Shown here in pieces: positions 1 to 45,132 of a DNA stretch of 64,000 nucleotides. A program made the translations under genes and the position numbers. The DNA comes from a virus: the IMG/VR virus record IMGVR_UViG_3300050343_000150, positions 27,748-91,747 of that record; one strand, written 5' to 3'. Under the pieces are notes generated by a model, which saw only the letters and a list, made by a program, of their open reading frames with translations, was not told where the DNA came from and ran no database searches. Numbering within the stretch: position 1 is the first letter of the stretch; every line of letters starts with the position of its first letter.

Positions 1-3000
1 AGAGACTCTTCAGGAGCAGGAATTGTTGAAGAAATTACCCCAACTAATTTGTTAACTATGTTAGGTGTAGAAGCCAGTGCAGACGTAACAGACACGACGA
101 ATGTTAGGGCTGCTCTACATAATGCAAATTTAGGAACTTTTAGTCTTGGTGATACGAATGATAACATTAGTGTTGGCAATTTAACTATTGGTGGGAATCT
201 AACAATTTCAGGAAGTACAACCACAGTTAACTCAACTACTGTTAACATAGGAGATAGTATAATTACTCTTAACTCAGATGAAACTGGGACTCCTTCAGAA
301 GATGCTGGTATAGAAATAGAGAGAGGAAATCAAACTAACAAGACGTTATTTTGGGATGAGAGTGCTAGTAGATGGACAGTTGGGAATGAGACTTTTGTTG
401 CAGGAACTTTTATTGGAAATGTAACTGGCACAGTATCTTCCGCAGGTGTATTATCTACCGCTAGAAATTTTGCACTCACAGGTGATGTAACAGCATCTGC
501 TGTTTCCTTTAATGGGTCAGGTGATGTTTCACTTTCAACTTCACTTTCAGATGGTACAATTACAACTTCCAAAATAGCCAACAATGCTGTCACTGCTGCT
601 AAATTAACTGGCAATTCTGTTGTCAATGCTTCAATCGCAACTAATGCAGTTACCACTGCTAAAATAGCAGATGATGCTATTACTACGGCTAAAATAGCAG
701 ATGATGCTATTACCTCTGCCTTGATTGCTGATGATGCTATTGTGTCTGCACTAATAGCAGATGATACAATAACTAGTGCTTTAATAGCAGATGATGCTGT
801 TTTAAATTCACATTTAGCAGGAAGTATTTCTCAAAGTAAAATTACAGGATTAACTTCTGCGCTGTCGGGTAAACAATCAACCTTAGCATTTGGTAATGCT
901 TTAACTAACACTAGTGGAACTGTTAATGTTGATATCGATTCTCTAAGCATTGAGACTGGTATTGACTTGAGTAACGATTATCTGATGTATGATGATGCGA
1001 CAAATGGACTACGAAGAATTAATTTATCTACAATATTTAGTAAATTAAACGCATCCCATATACCTAATTTATCTGCTAGTAAGACAACTAGTGGTGTATT
1101 TAACATAAGTAGAATACCGGATATGTCTACTAGTAAAATAACTAGTGGAACATTTTCAACAGCAAGAATCGCAAACGATGCAGTTACTTTTGATAAAATA
1201 CAAAATATAGGAGATACTGTAATATTAGGTAGACAGACTAGTGGTTCAGGAAGTATAGAAGCGTTGAATGCTTCACAGGCTAGAGCAGTATTAGGGGTAG
1301 ATACAGCAGGAACAGATAATTCTACCAACGTTACTTTAGCAGGAACTAGAAACTATCTTACAATTAGTGGGCAAACAATTACTAGAAACGTTATAGATAT
1401 CGGGGATGATACTAATTTAGTTGCCGGTAGTCGCATTAGTTTAACCGGAGATACATTAAATGTAGATGGAGATTTGGCTAATTATGATAACAGTAACAGT
1501 GGATTCTTAACTGCCCATCCCACTATTAGTGGGGCAGCATCTTCTGTTAATAATGACGGTAGGACATATATACAAGATATTACATTAGATTCTAATGGAC
1601 ACATTACCGCAATAACATCTGCTACTGAAACAGTAACAGATACTCAATATAGTGTGGGGGATGGAGGTCTTACCGAAAATAATTTTACTGATACATTGAA
1701 AACTAAATTAGATTCAGTAGATAGTAATTCTAATTATTATACTCTACCCATTGCTACTTCTTCTGCATTGGGTGGTTTTAAGGTAGGTAGTAATTTATCA
1801 ATTAATTCTATCACCGGAGTTTTATCTGCCGATACCCAATCTGACGTTAATTTTACTTCTGCACTAAATACTAAATTATCAGGAATAGCAACTAACGCTA
1901 CTGTTGGTGCAAATTGGGCAACTAACGTTTCAAATATCTCAGTAACGAATAGCCAATTAGCAGGTAGTATAACAAATGCAAAGTTGGCTAATTCAACAAT
2001 TACACTGAATGGTAGTTCTATTGCCCTTGGTGGAACTGCTACTTTAACCACCTCAAATATAGCAGAAGATTCAAACTTATATTTTACTGATGAACGAGTA
2101 GATGATAGGGTTAATGCTTTACTAACTGAAGGAGAAGGAATCACTACTACATACAATGATGGTGGGGGAGCATTAACAATTTCAGCAGAAGACGCTACTT
2201 CTTCTAACAAGGGTATTGCTTCTTTTGCAAGTGCTGACTTTGATGTTAGTAGTGGAGCAGTTACCGTAAAATCAGGAGGAATAAGTAATACTCAACTTGC
2301 TGGCTCTATCGCTAATAGTAAGTTATTAGATATTGCCCAAAGTAAAGTAACTGGATTAACTTCTACATTAAATACTAAAGTAGAAACTCTTAGTGATTTG
2401 AGTATAACTGCTTCTGCCGCAGAGATAAATATACTAGATGGAGTAACGGGAGTATCTGCAACCGAAATAGGACACCTCGGTGGTGTTACTTCTGCAATTC
2501 AAACACAACTAAATGCAAAACAGGCTAGTGGTAATTATTTAACTACATCAGCATCACTAACTTCTTTAGCAGATGTTAATGAATTTGACCATGATTTTAG
2601 TAGTATAAGTGCTAACCATGATTCAGTACCATCAACTAAAGCCGTCAAAACATATGTTGATTTGATATCATTTGATGCAAATGATACACAATATGCTTTC
2701 TCTGTTGAAGACACCGCCGATGTAGGTACTAAGAAATTAAAACTGACAGGAACAGATGGCTCATTTACTTCGGTAAATTTTGAGGGGTCAGGAGCAATAT
2801 CTGTCACAAGAATCAATGAAAGATTATTAATTACATCTAACCAACAAGCAGTTAATGCTGCAAATTTTGCAAATAATACATTAACCTTGACGAAAACTGA
2901 TGGAAGTACATTGACTACCACAATTAATACTACGTCAACTGCTTCTGAAGTACGTGCATTAGTAGAGTCAGCATTAGATTCAAATGTATTTACTGATGCA

Positions 3001-5250
3001 GACCATACTAAATTAAATGGTATTTCTACTAGTGCAAATAACTATTCAATTTCATCAGATTTACTAGACGAAGATAATATGGTTTCTAATTCAGCAACTA
3101 AAGTTGCTAGTCAACAGTCAATAAAGGCTTATGTTGATACAGAAGTGGCGGGGGTCATTGCTTCTGCTCCTGCGGCATTAGACACACTTAATGAGTTAGC
3201 AGCCGCCTTAGGAGATGATGCTAATTATGCTACAACAACTTCAACTGCATTAGGTAACAGATTACGAGTTGATGTTAACAGTCAAGGACTTAATGCTACA
3301 CAACAAGCAAATGCTATAACAAATTTAGGCATTACACCTAGTTTAGCAGAAATAAATATTCTCGATGGAGGATTGTCTGCAAGTGATATACCAAATTTAG
3401 CCGCATCTAAAGTTACAAGTGGTACGTTTGCAACAGTAAGGATACCGTCACTTTCTGCTTCAAAGATTACTAGTGGTACGTTTGCAACTGCGAGAATTGC
3501 AGATGATGCGATTACAGTTGATAAGATAAATGGTCTTACCGATTTAGGTAGTGGGACAGTTATTAGTTCATCAGAACGGACTAAACTATCCGGAATTGAA
3601 ACGTCAGCAGATGTAACGGATGCAACTAATGTTGCGGCGGCAGGGGCTGTAATGGATGGAGACTTTAGTAGTAATGGATTCATGAAAAGAACAGGCGCAG
3701 GAAGTTACACTGTTGACACTAATACATATCTAACTGCTCATCCTAATATTTCAGCCGCTAGTAGTAGTAACAATTCAGGAAGAACATACATTCAAGATAT
3801 AACATTAGATTCTAACGGTCATGTAACAGGCATTGCAACTGCAACAGAAACAGTAACTAACAGTGATACTCAGTTAACCCAAGAACAAGTAGAAGACTAT
3901 GTGAATGGATTGATTGTTGCAGGTACAAATGTAACTAAAACATATGACGATGTAGCAGGGACTTTAACCATTGCTTCCACTGGAAAAACACAAGAAGAAA
4001 TTGAAGATATTGTATCAAGTTTAGTTGTTGCAGGAAGTAATATCACAAAAACATATGATGACTCAGCAGGAACTTTAACTATTTCCTCGACAGATACTAA
4101 TACTCAATTAACTCTTTTAGATGAAGATAATATGGCTACTAATAGTGCCACAGCAGCAGCATCACAACAATCTATCAAAGCCTACGTAGACACTGAAGTA
4201 GCAAGTTTAGTAGATTCTGCTCCGGCTACCTTGAATACATTAAACGAATTAGCAGCCTCTATTGGTGATGACGCTAACTTTTCTACTACAATTACAACTG
4301 CGTTGGGTAATAGAGTTAGAACAGATACTGCTAGTCAAGGGTTAAACTCCACTCAAAAATCAAATGCTAGAACTAATATTGGTGTTGATGTTGCCGGGAC
4401 AGATAACTCTACCAATGTAACTTTGGCTTCTGTTAGTAATAATTATTTAAGTATTTCAGGACAGGCTATTACTGCTGGAACTATACCTTTGACTCTAGGA
4501 GGTACAGGAGCAACATCTGCTTCTGCTGCTAGAAGTAATTTAGGGTTGGGGACAGCAGCAGTCTTAGCAGGTAATGGTGCAATCGCTAATGGTAATGCAG
4601 GTTTAGTTACAGGAGATGTGGTTTTTGATTATATAACATCACAAGGGTTTGGTTCGGGTAACGGAGACATTACTAGTGTAGTAGCAGGAACTGGACTTAG
4701 TGGAGGTGCAACAAGTGGAGATGCAACACTAAATGTAGATGCTGCTCAAACACAAATAACTAGTGTTGGTACTCTAAGTAATTTAACAGTTTCAGGAGAT
4801 GTTACTGTTGATAGTACGACGTTTAAGATAGATACTACAAACAACCGTGTCGGTATCGGAACATCAAGTCCCGGCTACAAATTACAAGTAGAAGGTTCAT
4901 TTGCTGCGCAAACTAAGTCTTTCGTTATCCCACATCCTACACAAGAAGGAAAGACATTACAACATGGTTCTCTTGAAGGGCCGGAACATGGGGTATATCA
5001 TAGAGGTAGAATAACTGGTAGTGATAACATGGGAGTGTCAATAGAACTCCCTGAGTATTGGGAAGAATTAGTTGATGAAGAAACAATTACAGTACAATTA
5101 ACTGCAAATGGTGAGTTTCAAATGTTATATGTAGAAAAGATAGAAGACAACCGCGTGTTCGTAGGCAATGCAGCAGACGAGGGCGTTGACTGTTTTTACA
5201 TAATACATGGTGAAAGAAAGGACGTTGGAAAGATGGAGGTTGAATACTAA
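1..5250 (+). CDS. Giant repetitive tail fibre / adhesin protein 1 (5' end outside window)
   Basis: The frame is open from base 1, so the true start lies upstream. More than 1,740 residues are visible. The body is low-complexity Asn/Thr/Ser/Asp-rich beta repeat with recurring modules such as LNELAAALGDDANY, IADDAITTAKI and SGTFATARI, typical of marine phage fibres. The last ~130 residues form a conserved fibre-tip domain (GIGTSSPGYKLQVEG, then HGSLEGPEHGVYHRGRI, ending in YIIHGERKDVGKMEVEY) seen at the end of many T4-like cyanophage structural proteins. Role inferred: host attachment. The stop overlaps the start of the next fibre gene (TAATG), so the two are translationally coupled. Confidence 0.85.
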   Translation, partial: RDSSGAGIVEEITPTNLLTMLGVEASADVTDTTNVRAALHNANLGTFSLGDTNDNISVGNLTIGGNLTISGSTTTVNSTTVNIGDSIITLNSDETGTPSEDAGIEIERGNQTNKTLFWDESASRWTVGNETFVAGTFIGNVTGTVSSAGVLSTARNFALTGDVTASAVSFNGSGDVSLSTSLSDGTITTSKIANNAVTAAKLTGNSVVNASIATNAVTTAKIADDAITTAKIADDAITSALIADDAIVSALIADDTITSALIADDAVLNSHLAGSISQSKITGLTSALSGKQSTLAFGNALTNTSGTVNVDIDSLSIETGIDLSNDYLMYDDATNGLRRINLSTIFSKLNASHIPNLSASKTTSGVFNISRIPDMSTSKITSGTFSTARIANDAVTFDKIQNIGDTVILGRQTSGSGSIEALNASQARAVLGVDTAGTDNSTNVTLAGTRNYLTISGQTITRNVIDIGDDTNLVAGSRISLTGDTLNVDGDLANYDNSNSGFLTAHPTISGAASSVNNDGRTYIQDITLDSNGHITAITSATETVTDTQYSVGDGGLTENNFTDTLKTKLDSVDSNSNYYTLPIATSSALGGFKVGSNLSINSITGVLSADTQSDVNFTSALNTKLSGIATNATVGANWATNVSNISVTNSQLAGSITNAKLANSTITLNGSSIALGGTATLTTSNIAEDSNLYFTDERVDDRVNALLTEGEGITTTYNDGGGALTISAEDATSSNKGIASFASADFDVSSGAVTVKSGGISNTQLAGSIANSKLLDIAQSKVTGLTSTLNTKVETLSDLSITASAAEINILDGVTGVSATEIGHLGGVTSAIQTQLNAKQASGNYLTTSASLTSLADVNEFDHDFSSISANHDSVPSTKAVKTYVDLISFDANDTQYAFSVEDTADVGTKKLKLTGTDGSFTSVNFEGSGAISVTRINERLLITSNQQAVNAANFANNTLTLTKTDGSTLTTTINTTSTASEVRALVESALDSNVFTDADHTKLNGISTSANNYSISSDLLDEDNMVSNSATKVASQQSIKAYVDTEVAGVIASAPAALDTLNELAAALGDDANYATTTSTALGNRLRVDVNSQGLNATQQANAITNLGITPSLAEINILDGGLSASDIPNLAASKVTSGTFATVRIPSLSASKITSGTFATARIADDAITVDKINGLTDLGSGTVISSSERTKLSGIETSADVTDATNVAAAGAVMDGDFSSNGFMKRTGAGSYTVDTNTYLTAHPNISAASSSNNSGRTYIQDITLDSNGHVTGIATATETVTNSDTQLTQEQVEDYVNGLIVAGTNVTKTYDDVAGTLTIASTGKTQEEIEDIVSSLVVAGSNITKTYDDSAGTLTISSTDTNTQLTLLDEDNMATNSATAAASQQSIKAYVDTEVASLVDSAPATLNTLNELAASIGDDANFSTTITTALGNRVRTDTASQGLNSTQKSNARTNIGVDVAGTDNSTNVTLASVSNNYLSISGQAITAGTIPLTLGGTGATSASAARSNLGLGTAAVLAGNGAIANGNAGLVTGDVVFDYITSQGFGSGNGDITSVVAGTGLSGGATSGDATLNVDAAQTQITSVGTLSNLTVSGDVTVDSTTFKIDTTNNRVGIGTSSPGYKLQVEGSFAAQTKSFVIPHPTQEGKTLQHGSLEGPEHGVYHRGRITGSDNMGVSIELPEYWEELVDEETITVQLTANGEFQMLYVEKIEDNRVFVGNAADEGVDCFYIIHGERKDVGKMEVEY

Positions 5251-8200
5251 TGGCTGATTCAGATAAAGATATTGTAATTACACCAAATACAGGGAACACC
5301 ACAAAACCAAAAATAGAATTTACTGGTGCAGATAATTCGGTTAAATATCTACAAGTTAACGATGATGGTAGTCTAACATTCAATGATACGATAACCGCAA
5401 CATCCGGTTCAGTTGCAAATGGGAATCAAAATTTAGTTACTGGAACTGCGGTGTTTGGTTATATTTCTGCGCGAAATTTTATATCAAACAATTCTAATAT
5501 AACAGTTGGTAATAATATAGGATTAGCAGGAGCATCAGGTAATAGTTTACGAATTACAACTGCACAAGCGGCCTCTAATGGTGCGATTTTATCATTCGTT
5601 GGAAGTGATAATAACAGTATAAGTAATCTGACAATACCATCGGGTGATGGAACAATATCAACTTCTGACACTCAACTTACCACTGAAGAAGTTCAAGATA
5701 TAGTTGCCGCTATGATAGTCGGCGGTACTAATATTTCCGCAGCATATAATGATTCAGGTGGACTTTTAACTCTTGCAGTAAATGGACATAGAACAGTTAC
5801 AGCAGGTGGTAACACATTAGGTGCAACAGAAACACTTGCCCTAACTGCTGGCTCTAATGTTACGATTAGTGAAAGTGGAGGAGCAGTTACTATTGCTTCA
5901 ACAGATACTAATACTGACACAAATACACAGAATGTTTTCACATCCTCATTTGTTGATTCATCTAATGATACTATACTCAGGTTAACTAAAAGTGGTGCAT
6001 CAAGTGGTACTCAGGACATTAAGTTTGTAGCAGGTTCTAATGTAACATTAACACCTAGTGGAACAAATTTAACTATTGCTTCTACTGATACTAATACACA
6101 ATTATCATTACTTGACGAAGATAACTTTGCATCAAACAGCGCAACTGCTGCTGCTAGTCAACAGTCAATTAAATCATATGTAGATACTTCAGTTTCTAAT
6201 TTGGTGGCATCTGCACCTTCTGCATTAGATACTTTAAATGAACTTGCAGCAGCCTTAGGAGACGACGCGAGTTTTTCCACAACAACTGCTACTTCTCTAG
6301 GTAATAGACTTAGAATAGATGTAAGTAATCAAGGATTAAATTCTACACAACAGAGTAATGCTTTAACTAATTTAGGAATTACAGCAACATTAGCAGAAAT
6401 AAACATATTAGATGACGGACTTGCAACAGGAGATATACCTGCATTAGCCACTTCTAAAATCACATCGGGAACATTTGCTGATGCTAGAATAGCACAATCG
6501 AATGTTACTCAACATCAATCGGCTTTATCTATAACTGAATCACAAATTAGTGATTTACAATTTAAATTATTACCTGAAGTTCTATTTAACGATACTAATT
6601 TTGGGTTCAGTTTACTAATACAAACAGGTACTACTAACGCTGCCCCAACAACAGGTACGCTAGATAATGCAACTTTCAATATAGGATTAGGAAGTAATGT
6701 ATTTTCTTCATTAACATCAGGAACAAGAAATGTTGCTGTTGGACATGAAGCGGGGAGAAATTTAACAACTTCTGCTAGAAATACATTACTTGGTGCAGAA
6801 GCAGGACATGATATTACTACTGGTGGTAACAATGTTGCAATAGGAGATTTAGCCGGAGATAAAATTACTACTGGAAGCCAAAATACGTTGATTGGTGCAG
6901 AAAGTGGAGGAAATATTACTACTACATCATACAGTATAGGTTTAGGTAATAAAGCATTACTAGGTTCAACTGGAACAGCAAATATAGGAATAGGTTATCA
7001 GAGCCTTAACCATACTTCTCATTCAGGTTCATACAATGTAGCAATAGGACATCAAGCCGCACATAATGCTACGGGGGCAAATGGTAACAACATCGGTATT
7101 GGTAAATCATCATTGTATAATGTTACAGGAGGTTATAATTATGCAATAGGTGACGAAAGCGGTCAAGGTATAACTTCAGGTAGTAGTAATATTGCAATAG
7201 GAAGTAAATCTTTAGGAGGCTCAGGTACAGTTGTTACAAATGCACATAATATCGCCATAGGTAATAATGCTCTAAAAACTGGAGGTACACTTTCCGGTGG
7301 GTTGAATACTGCATTTGGATATGCTACTGGAAGTTCCTTAACAACAGGTCAAGGAAATTTATTATTAGGATTTACAGCAGGGAACAATATTACTACTGGT
7401 AGTGAAAATATAGTAATCGGTGCAGCAGATGTACCTTCTGCTACTGGTAATCATCAATTGTCAATATCTGATAATGGTAATGGGTCAGTAGTATGGATTA
7501 CAGGTGATTCTTCGGGACACGTTTCTTTAGGAAACTATGAATTTAACGCTGACCAAACAGTAGGTTCAGGTCAAGACAATTACGTTTTAAGGTACGACCA
7601 CTCAACCGGACAAATCGGTTTGGAAGCAGCAGGTGCAGGTGGAGAAAACAATCAAAATGCTTTCAGTAATGTAGCAGTAAGTGGACAAACAACTGTCGCA
7701 GCAGATTCAGCAACTGATACTCTTACTCTAGCCGCAGGTGCTAATGTTACATTAACAACTAATGCATCTAATGATACAGTAACTATCGCAGCAACTGATA
7801 CTAACACCAATACTCAACTTTCAACAGAACAAGTACAAGATATTGTAGGTGGTATGCTTGTTGGAACAGAAACAAGAATTGGTGTAAGTTATGATGATAC
7901 TAACGGTAGAATTAACTTTGTTGTAGATGATATGACAACAGATACTAATACATTTAGAACAGTAACTGCTGGAGGCAATACACTTGGTTCAAGTGAAACT
8001 CTTGCATTTACAGCAGGAAGTAATGTAACAATAACTGAATCCGGTGGTTCAGTAACAATAGCCTCAACAGATACCAACACTAACACTACTTACTCAGCAG
8101 GTAGTGGTATTGCTCTAAGTGGAACTACATTTAGTGTTGCAGGAGGAACTGGTTTATCCCAAACTTCTAGTGGGTTGGCATTATCACACTTAGGTATAGA

Positions 8201-11200
8201 AAGTCTTTCTGACCCTAATGCTGATAGGATTCTAATTTGGGATGATTCAGCAGGGGCTATTGCATTTGCTACACCAAACAGTAACATTTCAATTGATGGT
8301 ACAAATATTAACACTACTAACACACAACTTTCTACTGAGCAGGTGCAGGATATAGTAGGTGCAATGTTAGTAGGTACTGAAACTAGAATTGGTGTAACCT
8401 ATGATGATACAAACGGCAGGATTAATTTCGTAGTAGATGACATGACGGCAAACACCCAATTGACGTTGCTTGACCAAGACAATATGAGTTCGAACAGTGC
8501 TACCGCCGCAGCAAGTCAACAATCTATTAAGGCATATGTTGATGCAGAGATAGCAGGACTTGTTGATTCGTCTCCTAGTGCATTAAATACCCTAAACGAA
8601 TTAGCGGCGGCTCTTGGAGATGATGCTTCATTTTCAACTACTACGGCTACTTCTTTAGGAAATAGATTGAGAGTAGATGTAAATAACCAAGGTTTAAACT
8701 CAACTCAACAAGGAAATGCACTAACAAATCTAGGAATAACTGCCTCACTTGCTGAGATTAATATTCTAGATGGTGGATTAGCAGCATCTAACATTACTGA
8801 AATATCTAATTTGACAGCAGCAGAAGGAGAGCAATTAGAAAATATTGGTAGCACAACAATCTCCGCAACACAATGGGGTTATCTCGGTGGTTTAACTGCG
8901 GCAAAAGTAATAGATTGGTCGGTATCACAAACATTTGATGATATTCATCCAAATAATCAACACTCAGCAGGTACTAACCTCACATTAAGCGGTACTACTC
9001 TTAATGTTGATGATGCTTTCTTAGTCAATAATGCTAACGATACTACAACGGGTACTATTACTGCGGCTGGTTTTACAACAGCAGGGATAGTTGATGGTGT
9101 TAATTTCAAAATAAATGGCGGTCAAGGTTCTGACGGTCAAGTTCTAACTTCAACTGGTTCAGGAGTTGCTTGGGAAGATGCCGCAAGTGGTGGTGATTCA
9201 AATGCAGGTGGTGTTAATGGTTCAGCAGGTGCGCCTACATTTTCATTTGCTTCTGATACTAATACAGGAATGTATAGATTAACAGGTGATACTTTAGCAT
9301 TCTCAGTTGGTGGTTCTAATGCTATGTATATGCAACCATCTAAGGTTGAAGCGAATAAAAGATTTGAAATTATTGCAGGTTCTAATTCTGCTCCGGGTTT
9401 GTCATTAGCAGGTGATGATAATACAGGAATATACCGATATGCAGAAAATCAAATAGGATTCACAACAGACGGAACGGCTCAACTATTGATTAAAGATGGT
9501 GCAATAGAACCTGTTACTGATAATGATATAGATTTAGGAACATCCTCTCTAAAGTTCAAAAACTCATACTTTGGGTTAGTAGATGCTGAAAACTTCAAAG
9601 TAAATGGAGGGCAAGGTAATGACGGCCAAATCCTAACTTCAACAGGTAGTGGTGTTGCATGGGAAAATGCCGCAGTTGGTGGTATAGCAAGTTTAGCCGC
9701 AGATGACACGCCACAGTTAGGTGGAGATTTAGATGTTAATGGAAATAGTATTGTTTCAACTTCAAACACTGCAATAAATATTACACCAAATGGAACAGGA
9801 GATATACAACTTAATGCTGATACTATTAGAGTAGGAGATTCTAATGCAGATGTTACAATTGCACCTAATATTAGCAGTACAACTGCTAAACTTCAATTTC
9901 AATCAGATGGAGATACATTACTTAGAACAGCAAGTGGTACAGGAAATATGTATCTTAATGCTAATTCATTAATGTCAATGCAAGCAACAACTTTTAGATT
10001 TGGTACTAGCGGGGGTAATCCAACATTAACTACATTAGGAACAAGTGATTTAACTCTTAATACAAATAGCGGAACAAACTCCGGTTCTATTGTAATTGCA
10101 GATGGTGCTAATAGTGATATTAGTATTACGCCAAATGGAACAGGTCAAGTAAACTTAGGTAACTTTCAATTTGATGTAGACCAAACAGTAGGTTCAGGCC
10201 AAGATAATTATGTATTAACTTACGACCATGCTAATACACAAATTAGTTTAGAAGCAGCAGGTGGTGGTGGTGCTTCTGATATTGGCGCACTAGATGATGT
10301 ATTGATGGATGCTACTAATTTCACTAATTCACTTTTAATTCAAACCAACAGCGATACATCCGCACCTACAACGGGTACACTAAGTAGTGCTAATGAAAAT
10401 ATAGGAATAGGTAGAGATGTATTCAAGGTCTTAACAAGTGGTTCACAAAACGTATCAATGGGGAGTTACACATTAGATGCAGTTACAACAGGTAGTAACA
10501 ATACCATCATCGGTCATAATGCGGGAACTAGAATTGAAGATGACTCAGAAAATACATACATCGGTCAGGGTGCAGGTGCTAATTCAATAGGCAGTTTCAA
10601 CGTAGCATTAGGTTCAAGTACGATGACAGGTAGCAGTTCAACACTTCATACTGGTAGTCATAACGTAGCACTAGGTCGTGGCGCGATGACTAAAGTTCAA
10701 GGAGATGCGGCAGGTAACGTAGCTGTATAACACAACAACAGGTGGTTACAACATTGGTATAGGTCAAAATGCTTTAGAAAGAAATACTACTGAAGGTAAT
10801 CAGATTGCCATTGGTTCATCCGCTATGGGTGGTGCATATAATCAAGCGGCGACAGGTGCATACAATCTTGCTATTGGGAATCAAGCCTTGAGATATGGCG
10901 CACAGGACAATGGAAACTTTAACATTGGAATAGGCTATAAAGCACTTTATGGCTCTAATGGTAATAGTAGTGCTGCTAATTATAATATAGCAATCGGTTA
11001 TGAAGCGTTAGAGGCAAATACAACCGGAGATAGTAACGTAGCAGTAGGAACACAAGCGTTAGAAGCAAACACAACAGGTACAAGAAATCTCGCAATAGGT
11101 TATCGTGCCTTAGATGCCGCAGATACAGAAAACGATAACATAGCAATAGGTTATGATGCTTTAGGTGGTTCAGTAGCAGGTGCAGAATACACAGTAGCAA

Positions 11201-13271
11201 TTGGGAATTACACGCTTGATGCTTTAACATCGGGAGATAACAACACAGCAGTAGGTTATAATTCTGCAACAGCATTAATCGAAGGAAATCATAACACGGC
11301 AATAGGTTCTTACTCTTACTTTAGAGCAACAGATGGAACATATAATTGTGTTATAGGACAAAACTCAGGTGGAGGTTTAAGGTCGGGTAGTTATAACATA
11401 GTAACAGGCTTTAATACAATGGTCAAATAAATAATGACGGAGACTACAACGTAGCAATAGGCACACACTCTATGAATGCCGCAACAGGTAATGACGTTAA
11501 TTATAACACAGCAATAGGCACAAGTTCATTACAAAGTATTACATCAGGCGCGAAGAACATAGCATTAGGACAAACTGCCGGAAATAATATCACTAGCGGA
11601 GATTTTAACGTAGTAATTGGTGCGGCTGATGTAGCAAGTGCAACAGGTGATAGTCAGTTATCAATAAGTTCTGGTGATGGTGGTGTTACTTGGATAACAG
11701 GTGCTTCAACAGGTGCAGTAGATATTCCCGGTTCTTTAACAGTAGCGGGTTCAGCAGTTGGTGGTGCTTCTGACCTCAATGGTTTAACGGATGTAATTAG
11801 TAATATTACTAACTTTACAGACAGTATGCTAATTTCTACTGATAATGCTGCACCTCCACATGGCACACTAAGTAGTGCCAATGACAATTTAGGGATAGGT
11901 AAAGATGCACTTAGAACATTAACAAGCGGTACAAAAAACGTAGTTATTGGTAACTATGCTGGAGATGCTTTGACAACTAGTAGGGAAGTTGTGTTGATTG
12001 GATATAATGCAGGTTCGTCAATAACAGGAAGTAAACACGATTCAGTAGTAATTGGTTCTAATGCGCTGTGTGAAGCAGCAGACCCAAGTAACACAGTAGC
12101 AATAGGACAAAGTGCAGGTCAATATGCTGAGGGCATTCAAAATGTAATGGTTGGAGTAAGTGCAGGTAAATACTGGCAAAATACCGGCCTTAATTCTCAA
12201 AAGAATGTATTTATTGGTAGTAGTGCTGGAAATAGAGGAACAGTTAATGGTGAACAAACATGGGTTACTGTTGTTGGCGCAGATGCCGGTAGTAGAACAG
12301 CGATAGGGTCTTTTTCAACAATTATAGGTGGTGGTTCAGGGCTATGGTCTCCCGGACAAAGTAATACATTTCTTGGTCAGTATGCAGGTCAAGGAAATGC
12401 TAACGTAACTACATCCTCTAACAATAATATAGCAATTGGTAAACAGGCCTTGTATGGTCATCAAATGACATCTTCAGGTAATAACGTAGCAATTGGGCCT
12501 TCAACGTTGTATAATACTACAACAGGTTCTTTGAATATTGCTCTTGGTAATAGTGCCTTAAATGATGTAACATCAGGCGGCAACAACATAGGTATAGGAT
12601 TCGGTGCGGGGGATTTAATAACAACTGCTGATAAAAACATTACAATTGGTTATGATGCTGGAAATAATATTACAACAGGTTCTAACAACGTAGTTATTGG
12701 TGGTGCTGATGCGCCTTCTGCAACAGGTAATGACCAATTAGTTATCGCATCCGGTGATGGTTCACCTACATGGTTAACAGGTAATTCGTCAGGAGTTGTT
12801 GACTTTCCCAATGGAACAACAGGTACAGGTTCTTTCTACATTACAGCAGAAGAAAGTAATTGGCAATTAAATGTAGGTGAGTCAAATGGTTTCCATTGGT
12901 CTTTTGGTAACGGTGCTGATATAGGAGATGCACCTTCTAGTAACGCAAAGAACGAAGGTATTGCACTACCTGTTGATTGTACACTAAAGTTCTTACATTT
13001 AAACTGTGCAAATGACGGTAATGAAACCGCAGGTAACAGTGCAACTGTTCAGATATACAAAGCAACTTCGGCCACTGCTACTCAATCGGCAGTTGCTAAT
13101 ACTGGAATAACTGCTACTGTTGCGACAAATGGACACGGTGTATCTGCTACTGGTGATTATGACGTTGATTTTAACAAGGGAGACATTATTCTTTTCCGTT
13201 CAACTACGGCTAATCAGTCAGGTATATATGTCGGAAGAGGAACAATATCAGCATATTTCGTAGAGAGGTGA
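5250..13271 (+). CDS. Giant tail fibre / adhesin protein 2 (two compensating frameshifts)
   Basis: About 2,670 residues once two frameshifts are bridged: near 10,730 (frame 0 to +1) and near 11,430 (back to frame 0). Repeat sequence continues across both, so this is one gene with probable sequence errors. It shares the LNELAAALGDD module with the upstream fibre. It also has long stretches of YadA-head-like beta-roll repeats (NVAIG/NTAIG/NIGIG units about every 14-20 residues), roughly 6.7-7.4 kb and 10.4-12.7 kb. The C-terminal ~145 residues (from FYITAEESNWQLN to ISAYFVER) are a non-repetitive cap, probably receptor-binding. Role inferred: second attachment fibre or partner of fibre 1. Confidence 0.83.
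6690..7440 (+). repeat. Beta-roll (YadA-head-like) repeats, block 1
   Basis: Degenerate tandem coding repeats of about 45-60 bp within fibre 2, translating as alternating xTGxxN and VAIGxxA units. Similar units resume at about 10.4-12.7 kb. In trimeric adhesins such repeats form left-handed parallel beta-rolls. Confidence 0.7.
10380..12730 (+). repeat. Beta-roll (YadA-head-like) repeats, block 2
   Basis: Second, longer block of NxAIGxxAL / TTGSxN units within fibre 2. It contains both frameshift points (near 10,730 and 11,430); the repeat register resumes in another frame each time, which is why the breaks read as indels within one gene. Confidence 0.7.
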
Positions 13272-39126: not shown

Positions 39127-40245
39127 TTATTTTTCCTCCTTAAGTTCATCGATTAATTTCGATACTTCTCCTTTAGATAGTGAATCTATATCTCCTTCGT
39201 ACCCCAATGCTCTTAGGTACTTTATCTGAGGTATGGTAGGGTTATCATTATACCGATTAATTATCTTCATTAATGTGCTAATTTGCTTGGGTGAGATATC
39301 CTTTCGTTCAGATACTCTATTTACCATATCAGTTAGGAATTTAGTTTCCCAATCATTAGATGCTAGTTTAGTAGTGAAGTGTGGAATACCGAAATATTCG
39401 CAACTCTCACGGAAATCTCTTTCGGTTTTCTCAGTCCAAACTTTATTCCTCAACTCTAACTGTTGTTCATATTTCATCTTCCTTTGCTGTGCGGCTTCAA
39501 TTGCATCATCTTCTTCTTTGACTTCTTGACGATGTTGAGCAATGAGAGCGTGGAATATAGATAAGTCTTGCATTAATCTATCGTTAGGATAACCACGACC
39601 ATTCTGTTGATTTCTAGTGTTGTCAGGATGATTCCATCTCCACACAATAGAAGCCATTTCATAATCGGGAGTATATACTTCACCACGACTAACCTTTCTA
39701 ATTTTAGTTTGTTCAGTACGAATACCTAACTTATTATCCCACATATATCTACCAGTTCTTCTGACATTAATACGTAAATCCAATTCTTTAATTTCATTAA
39801 ATGTTGCAATGAAATCTTCTCCATTTGCATTCCACCATGCATCTTTCTTTAACGCACTAACTCTAACATCAATCCATTCTTGAATCATACTTTCTGTAAT
39901 AGCATCTGAATCAATACCAGTCTCTTCTGAAATTGCTCTAAGAATCATGTAAGAATTAATGTGGTCTGAACCAACACATTCTCTAACACCAGTTTCTGTG
40001 TTTTCTATTTCGAAATGATACACAATTCTATGTCCACATAAACATGTTCTAGGATGTTTGGCTGCCCAATTCGGTCTTGGAGTTCCAATACCTTGCCACC
40101 ATACTTCACCAGTTGCACGCCATTCATGTTTAGCATCATCGTAGTTATCTGAAAGAGATAATTCTGTCATATTCCTTTTCAGGAGTTTATCCCATCTACC
40201 ATTACCAAGTTCTCTTTTACCTAGTTTGTAGTCTTCTATCTCCAT
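39127..40245 (-). CDS. Unknown zinc-site protein, 372 aa
   Basis: CLCGHRIVYHFEIEN and RECVGSDHI form a C-x-C-x-x-H...C...H zinc pattern near residues 68-95. The middle is a long charged helix (EEDDAIEAAQQRKMKYEQQ). The end has a small repeated helical motif (ISPKQISTLMKIINRY and TIPQIKYLRALGYEGD). This architecture recurs in uncharacterised marine virus proteins. Perhaps DNA-binding. Confidence 0.55.
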   Translation of the reverse strand: MEIEDYKLGKRELGNGRWDKLLKRNMTELSLSDNYDDAKHEWRATGEVWWQGIGTPRPNWAAKHPRTCLCGHRIVYHFEIENTETGVRECVGSDHINSYMILRAISEETGIDSDAITESMIQEWIDVRVSALKKDAWWNANGEDFIATFNEIKELDLRINVRRTGRYMWDNKLGIRTEQTKIRKVSRGEVYTPDYEMASIVWRWNHPDNTRNQQNGRGYPNDRLMQDLSIFHALIAQHRQEVKEEDDAIEAAQQRKMKYEQQLELRNKVWTEKTERDFRESCEYFGIPHFTTKLASNDWETKFLTDMVNRVSERKDISPKQISTLMKIINRYNDNPTIPQIKYLRALGYEGDIDSLSKGEVSKLIDELKEEK

Positions 40246-42715: not shown

Positions 42716-42755
42716 CTACCATATGGTAGGCCACTTTTGTAAGACTACCTTATAC
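42695..42755 (+). promoter_or_regulatory. CCATATGG-dyad promoter 1
   Basis: CTACCATATGGTAG palindrome (42,716-42,729), a partial left flank CAAAGT (42,695), right element ACTTTTGT, second inverted repeat GGTAG...CTACC (to 42,749), then TATA (CCTTATACC). The ATG at 42,778 lies about 25 bases after the TATA, so the transcript should be leaderless. Confidence 0.7.
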
Positions 42756-43879: not shown

Positions 43880-44341
43880 ATGGCAGTAGAAAATTGGAAT
43901 ACAGAAATAGAAGCCCCGACAGTAAAATACCTAGAACAAGGAACTCTAAATGAGTTTGCTCAAGACTTGATTCGTGGATGGTTAGATGAAGGAAGAACAA
44001 CCCCTCGCTCTCAGAGAAGAGTTACAGGATTCATTAAAGAGATTATCAATAAGAATGATGATTCACCTTTCAAGGCAACACGAACAGGCTCAAGAACATA
44101 CACTCTACCACAAGAACAGCAGGAAGCAATGAATGCAGTTTGTAGTATGGTAGACGGTCAACTTGTTCTATCAGAAGATGCTCACACATACTTCCGTACA
44201 TACTACGGAAGGACTAACTCTGATGGCACTAAAAAGACATCATGGGAAAACAACGAAGAATTAATTAATACTTTAGTTCTTAGCAAAATGCAGGAATCTT
44301 TCATAAGTGATTATAAGAAATCACTAAAGGAGGATAACTGA
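43880..44341 (+). CDS. Unknown 153-aa protein
   Basis: Starts MAVENWNTEIEAPTVKYLEQ. Helical, charged (GFIKEIINKNDDSPFK, SRTYTLPQEQQEAMNAVC), ending KKSLKEDN. AAGGAG lies 9-10 bases upstream. The leader GCTTGGAGGC (43,844-43,853) is perfectly complementary to GCCTCCAAGC just after the stop (44,350-44,359). No family recognised. Confidence 0.6.
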   Translation: MAVENWNTEIEAPTVKYLEQGTLNEFAQDLIRGWLDEGRTTPRSQRRVTGFIKEIINKNDDSPFKATRTGSRTYTLPQEQQEAMNAVCSMVDGQLVLSEDAHTYFRTYYGRTNSDGTKKTSWENNEELINTLVLSKMQESFISDYKKSLKEDN

Positions 44342-44409
44342 TTTCATTTGCCTCCAAGCACCACCTTAAACGATAAATAACTAATTTTGTTGTTTTTGGA
44401 GGTCCTTGG

Positions 44410-44460
44410 ACAAAGTTAGAACCATATGGTAGTAACTTTTGTCAACTACCTTAATATAGG
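44410..44460 (+). promoter_or_regulatory. CCATATGG-dyad promoter 3 (drives the non-coding RNA candidate)
   Basis: ACAAAGTTA (44,410), CCATATGG (44,422-44,429), TAACTTTTGT, second inverted repeat GGTAGT...ACTACC (to 44,450), then TTAATATAGG. No ORF of note follows for about 400 bases. Confidence 0.7.
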
Positions 44461-44477
44461 AATTGGCTAGGGTATTT

Positions 44478-44865
44478 ATGTTGGTTGACGTGACCAACAC
44501 GCTATGACTGAATAATGCCGTTGTATAGGCATAAGGTAATACTAGTTTGTTCTGTGGTGGAACAGCGAGCCGGTGTGGTAAAGCATTGGCAGTACAATGA
44601 GAGTAACTCCTCACTAGTATGTATAGTCGGGTTAAATGCTCTAAGCAAAATATACACCCTATGATTATTGGAAGACGCTGGAAACAGTGATGAAACCTAG
44701 CATCCAACTCTTAGTAGAAGAGCAACAGAAAACAATTGAAGAACTAAACACTATAATTAGTAAGGACACAGTGTATTCTACGTGAATACGGACTAGATAC
44801 GAAACTTCTCGAACTATCTAGTGGCCGAGAGAGTTCTTATTGTTAGTTTGCTCTTCTACATCTGA
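44478..44865 (+). ncRNA. Structured non-coding RNA candidate
   Basis: Begins about 20-25 bases after the TATA of promoter 3 with hairpin TTGGT...ACCAA (44,481-44,497). Other helices: TGTTC/GAACA (44,548/44,560), ATACTAGT/ACTAGTAT (44,539/44,613), and a long stem of 12 perfect pairs GTAGAAGAGCAA (44,714) with TTGCTCTTCTAC (44,848). That stem is extended by AACAA..AAGAACT with AGTTCTT.TTGTT and encloses hairpins GTATTC/GAATAC (44,773/44,784) and CTAGATA/TATCTAG (44,793/44,815). No coding frame. No known RNA family recognised. Confidence 0.6.
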
Positions 44866-44875
44866 GGTATGTTAT

Positions 44876-44927
44876 ACAAAGTTACAACCATATGGTATTC
44901 AACTTTCGTAAGGATACCTCATATAGG
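44876..44927 (+). promoter_or_regulatory. CCATATGG-dyad promoter 4
   Basis: ACAAAGTT (44,876), CCATATGG (44,888-44,895), AACTTTCGT, second inverted repeat GGTAT...ATACC, then CATATAGG. The ATG at 44,947 is about 25 bases after the TATA: leaderless. Confidence 0.7.
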
Positions 44928-44946: not shown

Positions 44947-45132
44947 ATGGAAGCAGAAACCAAAATAGAAGCAATGCCAGCATATACGATTGAAGTAGGA
45001 CATATGAAGTCCGGTTCTGATATCGTTCTGATATTAAAAAGTCTGAAAGTGAATAAAGATTCACTTCCGGAAGCAATAGCAGAAATTAAAGCCGCACTAG
45101 AAGTGTTCAATGATATGGGGTTGGGACAATGA
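44947..45132 (+). CDS. Unknown 61-aa protein
   Basis: Starts MEAETKIEAMPAYTIEVGHM; a beta hairpin plus one helix (SLPEAIAEIKAALEVFNDMG). Probably leaderless from promoter 4 and coupled to the next gene (ATGA). No family recognised. Confidence 0.6.
   Translation: MEAETKIEAMPAYTIEVGHMKSGSDIVLILKSLKVNKDSLPEAIAEIKAALEVFNDMGLGQ

Follow-up and report, generated by a model that had tools for sequence, protein, structure and literature searches.

The region at positions 44480-44865 of a 64 kb stretch of viral DNA (the window; positions 27748-91747 of a 91.7 kb IMG/VR virus record) is non-coding, structured and flanked by two archaeal promoters, and its 5' part (44480-44707) is, judged by sequence and fold, a divergent homologue of the Rfam manA RNA. 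The window RNA probably represents an optional, free-standing RNA gene in a magrovirus-like archaeal virus. It shares both sequence and structure with manA, its helices covary, it lies at a fixed spacing from a promoter, it is separated from the next gene, and it is cleanly absent from relatives. Transcription is presumed, and the RNA itself would act in trans, on something that bacteria and archaea share. Since 2010 manA has been listed as a probable cis-regulatory RNA or riboswitch; that archaeal viruses have it in free-standing form, under a promoter of its own and not in every relative, argues for independent action. The features of the locus are given below by position in the window.

44403-44462, plus strand: palindromic viral promoter; its CATATGG core lies at 44423 between inverted repeats, with a TATA-like TTAATATA at 44451-44458 (-29 to -22 relative to the RNA start)
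44480-44707, plus strand: manA-type RNA domain (RF01745, 31.7 bits), 28 base pairs, with covariation seen across 11 archaeal-virus sequences
44480-44498, plus strand: P1 hairpin with GACG in the loop, the predicted RNA 5' end (manA model positions 1-16), starting 57 nt after CATATGG
44501-44504, plus strand: GCTA, the putative 5' half of manA's long-range helix, with its partner TAGC at 44698-44701; aligned to the RF01745 helix written [[[[[ ]]]]]
44505-44537, plus strand: core TGACTGAATAA, P2 hairpin (TGCC/GGCA) and TAAGGT, closed by ACT/GGT; pairs present in 11 of 11 sequences
44540-44619, plus strand: P3 junction, closed by TACTAG/CTAGTA and containing three hairpins: Pa (GTTC/GAAC, loop TGTGGTG), a variable one and Pc (TGAG/CTCA)
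44625-44666, plus strand: P4, AGTC/GATT plus GGG(T)/(A)CCC, with pairing in the 11-sequence alignment
44708-44865, plus strand: lineage-specific 3' domain, with a 12-bp stem, inner helices and hairpins at 44773-44789 and 44792-44822 (folding z -4.2)
44863-44925, plus strand: next palindromic promoter, CATATGG at 44889, which separates the RNA from the gene at 44947

At the Rfam gathering threshold the window gave no match. A low-threshold search covering 561 nt, with E-values up to 10, returned a single match, to manA (RF01745) at 44480-44707, with 31.7 bits and an E-value of 1.9e-6 (7.5e-8 when computed for the whole record), covering model positions 1-192 of 192. As this score lies below the RF01745 gathering cut-off of 55.2 bits, the RNA is classed as a divergent manA homologue or variant and not as a member by score. 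The family's distinctive arrangement is nevertheless present: P1 with its GACG loop is followed by TGACTGAATAA, P2 and TAAGG (44480-44537), and a hairpin with a GUGGUG loop lies inside the P3 junction (44540-44619). The first-pass annotation had found no resemblance to tRNA, RNase P RNA or SRP RNA, and this holds, with tmRNA likewise giving no match (ARAGORN, 0 genes; Rfam up to E 10); the RNA does have relatives, its 5' 230 nt being a divergent manA.

Homologues of this RNA recur among related archaeal viruses. Nine relatives were found through ribonucleotide reductase, having up to 19 proteins in common with the window; manA scores above the cut-off in two of these and in two of another four relatives (64.4, 83.1, 84.7 and 86.1 bits), which with L415 at 70 bits makes five archaeal viruses. 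The protein family of the gene at 39127-40245 led to 74 more records, two of them already searched, among which 13 match manA at E <= 0.1 with scores from 54.6 down to 14.5 bits, twelve at E-values of 6.8e-15 to 2.3e-4 and one weakly (E 0.0098). About 15 further archaeal-virus homologues lie below the cut-off, with lower but mostly significant scores, and in total some 20 related archaeal viruses carry a manA-type RNA. This suggests that manA is a free RNA rather than a switch for one gene. A combined pattern of promoter core and manA core retrieved 13 contigs, 12 of them with manA; the other, L409, was rejected as a chance coding match. Matches to the core motif in cellular genomes were mostly due to chance, and the three real ones (L175, L179 and L213) are of the cyanophage type. 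A nucleotide search of GenBank phages gave no match.

The fold is supported by an alignment of 11 archaeal-virus copies. In this alignment, 90.6% of cells are paired against 63.3% in shuffles. Because the structure itself was derived from the window sequence together with the Rfam layout, this figure is biased in its favour, and counting double changes gives the stronger measure. Of the 28 pairs, 23 show such changes on both sides, a result that none of 500 shuffles equalled. The alignment has a covariation score of 0.76, compared with 0.22 in shuffles, and shifting the partners by a single column makes the signal collapse. Double changes affect all pairs of P3 (6/6), Pa (4/4) and Pc (4/4), core and P2 pairs also change on both sides, and one position of the helix closing the core shows AU, GC and CG types. 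Pairing in P4 reaches 94% of cells for GGG/CCC and 66% for AGTC/GATT, which is partly misaligned. The GCTA/TAGC helix, placed by the model and, at only 4 bp, weak alone, stands outside the covariation count.

The helices are thus kept with compensation among homologues, and no open frame is conserved across them, in agreement with the earlier description of a region lacking an ORF. A 9-codon ATG frame (ATGTTGGTTGACGTGACCAACACGCTATGA, 44478-44507) does begin at the predicted transcript start; it was dropped as a coding candidate, similar ATGs in P1 being found in some homologues only and in differing frames.

The promoter element fixes the probable start of the transcript. Palindromic elements of this type precede many genes in the window virus and its relatives, and one lies upstream of manA in 18 of 18 archaeal loci measured. 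The distance from CATATGG to P1, 57 nt in the window, is 53-70 nt across the 18 loci and 56-61 nt in 15 of them; this fixed spacing points to a likely RNA start near 44480. The helix that had been noticed at the predicted 5' end is the P1 hairpin. In the related loci, ATGs of ORFs after CATATGG peak at 55-59 nt: these five positions hold 52 of them, or 10.4 per nt, and other positions have about 1-2 each. Such a peak is what leaderless archaeal mRNAs would produce. The original proposal, a structured non-coding RNA behind a promoter of its own, is supported, with the qualification that the promoter is a repeated palindromic element and not a sigma-70 site, and is archaeal, given the magrovirus-like nature of the virus. 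Within the window, palindromic promoters centred on ACCATATGGT with a TATA-like box are located at 42720, 43784, 44423, 44889, 46360, 46742 and 47096, serially across a block of small genes whose ATGs mostly lie 57-58 nt downstream, consistent with leaderless mRNAs. The precision of the predicted start makes the transcript testable in existing marine transcriptomes.

The 3' part of the RNA is of a different character. The 12-bp stem at 44714-44725/44848-44859 (GTAGAAGAGCAA/TTGCTCTTCTAC) is exact on reading the sequence, as are the two perfect hairpins inside it, GTATTC-TACGT-GAATAC at 44773-44789 and ACTAGATA...TATCTAGT at 44792-44822. The stem, which had drawn attention to the locus, is therefore real, but it belongs to a lineage-specific 3' domain outside the conserved core. 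This domain is common to only one other virus, G023 (locus L396), where the window stem GUAGAAGAGCA/UGCUCUUCUAC becomes GCAGGG-uu-GAGCA/UGCUC-CCCUGC; three pairs of the outer stem are changed on both sides and GAGAGUUCUUAU is retained. A motif search for further relatives of the domain returned just G023 and two chance coding matches. The whole 388 nt fold at -104.6 kcal/mol (z -2.3), and nearly all of the excess is 3': 44708-44866 has z -4.2, with 0 of 200 shuffles as low, and 44480-44707 has an ordinary folding energy (z -0.9). Because the minus strand folds about equally well (z -3.2), folding energy alone cannot choose the strand, which is chosen by promoter and covariation.

Other archaeal viruses have 3' regions that differ from the window type. 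In a subset of them, a domain termed D2 (GAAAC-AAA-GCC ... GGC-GGA-GUUUC, with a GUAGUAAGAC motif) lies immediately 3' of manA at five loci:

L402, 1796-1923: D2 domain
L399, 1305-1427: D2 domain
L401, 1897-2015: D2 domain
L359, 3286-3412: D2 domain
L299, 1768-1885: D2 domain

D2, which Rfam lacks, is a new conserved domain whose outer pairs are compensated. A likeness of the window 3' domain to D2 had been noted by eye (AAACAC...GUAAGGACA); it was withdrawn at 3.9 bits against the D2 model. The group of G007, G012 and G013 has 350-590 nt of extra non-coding, strongly folding sequence between manA and the next promoter, as in the following long 3' extensions:

L298, 977-1500, minus strand: long 3' extension
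L309, 1706-2050: long 3' extension
L310: long 3' extension

Downstream of manA in L391-L398 there are short promoter-delimited segments of about 100-300 nt, lacking clear ORFs, which hint at several other small RNA genes.

The neighbourhood of the RNA bears on whether it controls an adjacent gene. The 61-aa gene at 44947 has its ATG 58 nt past the CATATGG at 44889, a leaderless position, and since the RNA has its own upstream promoter and the next gene a separate one, the RNA does not lie in the 5' UTR of a controlled gene as a riboswitch would. In most archaeal copies, as in the window, a CATATGG core falls between the RNA and the next substantial ORF, for which reason the RNA is held to act on its own. 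Homologues of the flanking genes at 43880 and 44947 are 606 nt apart here, compared with about 150-170 nt at nine loci of relatives, two of which (L304 and L318) are in one record; the gap in L304 consists of one promoter and no RNA. The relatives are without the entire promoter-RNA unit at the corresponding site, and the closest syntenic ones have no match elsewhere in their records; G023 has the window RNA type elsewhere in its genome. Gain and loss through recombination between promoter copies is a plausible explanation. The promoter of the next gene and the missing unit in relatives together favour a stand-alone optional RNA gene over an mRNA leader. A protein search with the upstream 153-aa gene found no relatives.

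In one subclade (L299, L410, L412 and L415), a small basic ORF follows manA without a recognised palindromic promoter directly before it, and is preceded by a Shine-Dalgarno-like sequence; L402 is similar. The encoded protein (L299:1896-2144, and in L410, L412 and L415) has 79-102 aa, 24-29% K/R and a start of the form MR..QK, and is a candidate RNA-binding partner.

The virus itself is, on its gene content, magrovirus-like. The window encodes a TFIIB zinc-ribbon protein, family B polymerase parts in two genes, an ERCC4-type nuclease, an ATP-dependent ligase and a B12-dependent ribonucleotide reductase. This content agrees with the ICTV description of Magrovirales, viruses infecting marine Poseidoniales (PMC10768690), and the record has the TFB, two-gene family B polymerase, ATP-dependent ligase and 90-100 kb genome of a magrovirus-like archaeal tailed virus. 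Neither the marker protein at 39127-40245 nor the TFIIB-like protein matched GenBank phages, and no named magrovirus was matched directly, so that the order is assigned by gene content. A TFIIB zinc ribbon is found in 16 of 18 archaeal-virus records carrying manA. Very long repetitive ORFs in consecutive frames (1733, 1826, 201 and 599 aa) occupy 49-13271 and are tail-fibre- or adhesin-like.

Bacterial phages present manA in other surroundings. In non-cyanobacterial phages, a tRNA lies within 150 nt in 19 of 28 manA loci, often 6-12 nt upstream, many of these loci being near-identical and not 28 independent cases; no such tRNA link is seen in the archaeal viruses. Adjacency to tRNAs in some cases has also been described in a study of a Bifidobacterium megaplasmid (PMC10832533). 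In phage contigs L131, L136 and L140, manA sits in a tRNA cluster and a tmRNA gene is found a few kb away.

A cis-regulatory leader or riboswitch, which would sense a ligand and control the gene immediately downstream, is the function under which Rfam types manA, many examples of which lie in potential 5' UTRs and were called cis-regulatory by Weinberg et al. 2010 (PMC2864571). The view may hold in cyanophages, where an ORF often begins within about 40 nt of manA, and the conserved basic ORF after manA in a few archaeal viruses is compatible with it. For the window RNA it is quite unlikely: a complete promoter stands before the next ORF, whose ATG is at a leaderless position, nine loci of relatives have the same neighbour gene but no RNA, the phage neighbour is often a tRNA, and downstream ORFs vary by clade. 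That the locus is no RNA at all, and that between the two promoters there is only some element acting as DNA, or a fold arising by chance, is scarcely credible given covariation that includes G-U pairs and manA-model homology in about 20 viruses, even though the minus strand folds nearly as well and the manA part is unremarkable in energy.

Being virus-borne, structured and apparently independently transcribed, the RNA could also serve genome replication or packaging (primer- or pRNA-like), with a viral rather than a host target. This is very unlikely for an optional element, missing from the closest syntenic relatives and giving no Rfam match in most of roughly 85 related records, many being fragments, and manA is moreover found in unrelated phage groups. 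A decoy or counter-defence RNA that sequesters or inhibits a host nuclease or signalling factor would suit an optional single-gene cassette within a promoter-delimited accessory region, and phage tRNA clusters are known to counter tRNA-cutting defences. It is nonetheless unlikely, as core motifs strictly conserved in bacterial and archaeal viruses would require its target to exist in both domains. Pairing through a C/D box or an anti-Shine-Dalgarno sequence was dropped as a candidate, the bases not being conserved in archaeal copies.

Under the preferred reading of a stand-alone RNA gene, transcription from the palindromic archaeal promoter would begin at the P1 hairpin and yield an RNA of about 385 nt, whose 5' 230 nt would fold as a divergent manA and the remainder as the lineage-specific 3' domain, the unit terminating just ahead of the next gene's promoter. 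More generally, it is tentatively proposed that manA may be a trans-acting viral RNA in bacterial and archaeal hosts, directed at a target common to both domains, and in archaeal viruses a modular gene that carries a promoter of its own and 3' domains that can be exchanged (window type, D2 type or long extensions), with a small basic protein as its companion in one clade. That viruses of both domains use manA restricts the range of possible targets. The leading candidate, though a doubtful one, is the translation or tRNA machinery, or else a host defence directed against that machinery, put forward because manA sits in tRNA clusters of non-cyanobacterial phages.

Among known systems, GOLLD and ROOL are, like manA, large structured phage RNAs described in the literature as often near tRNA genes; they are much larger, and the window has no Rfam match to either. 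The manA RNAs of tRNA-cluster phages (L123-L153) share the same core with the window RNA and are likewise tied to no single protein gene. Two UUAGC-type hairpin loops in these phage RNAs recur in one archaeal subtype; they differ from the window RNA in often lying about 150 nt or less from tRNA genes and in having no window-type 3' domain. With manA RF01745 itself, the window RNA has in common the P1 hairpin with GACG, the TGACTGAATAA core, P2, TAAGGT, the P3 junction with its GTGGTG-loop hairpin and the full model length, and putatively also the long-range closing helix. It departs from that family in its sub-cut-off score, its residence in an archaeal virus under its own archaeal promoter, its position outside a 5' UTR and its extra 3' domain of about 158 nt.
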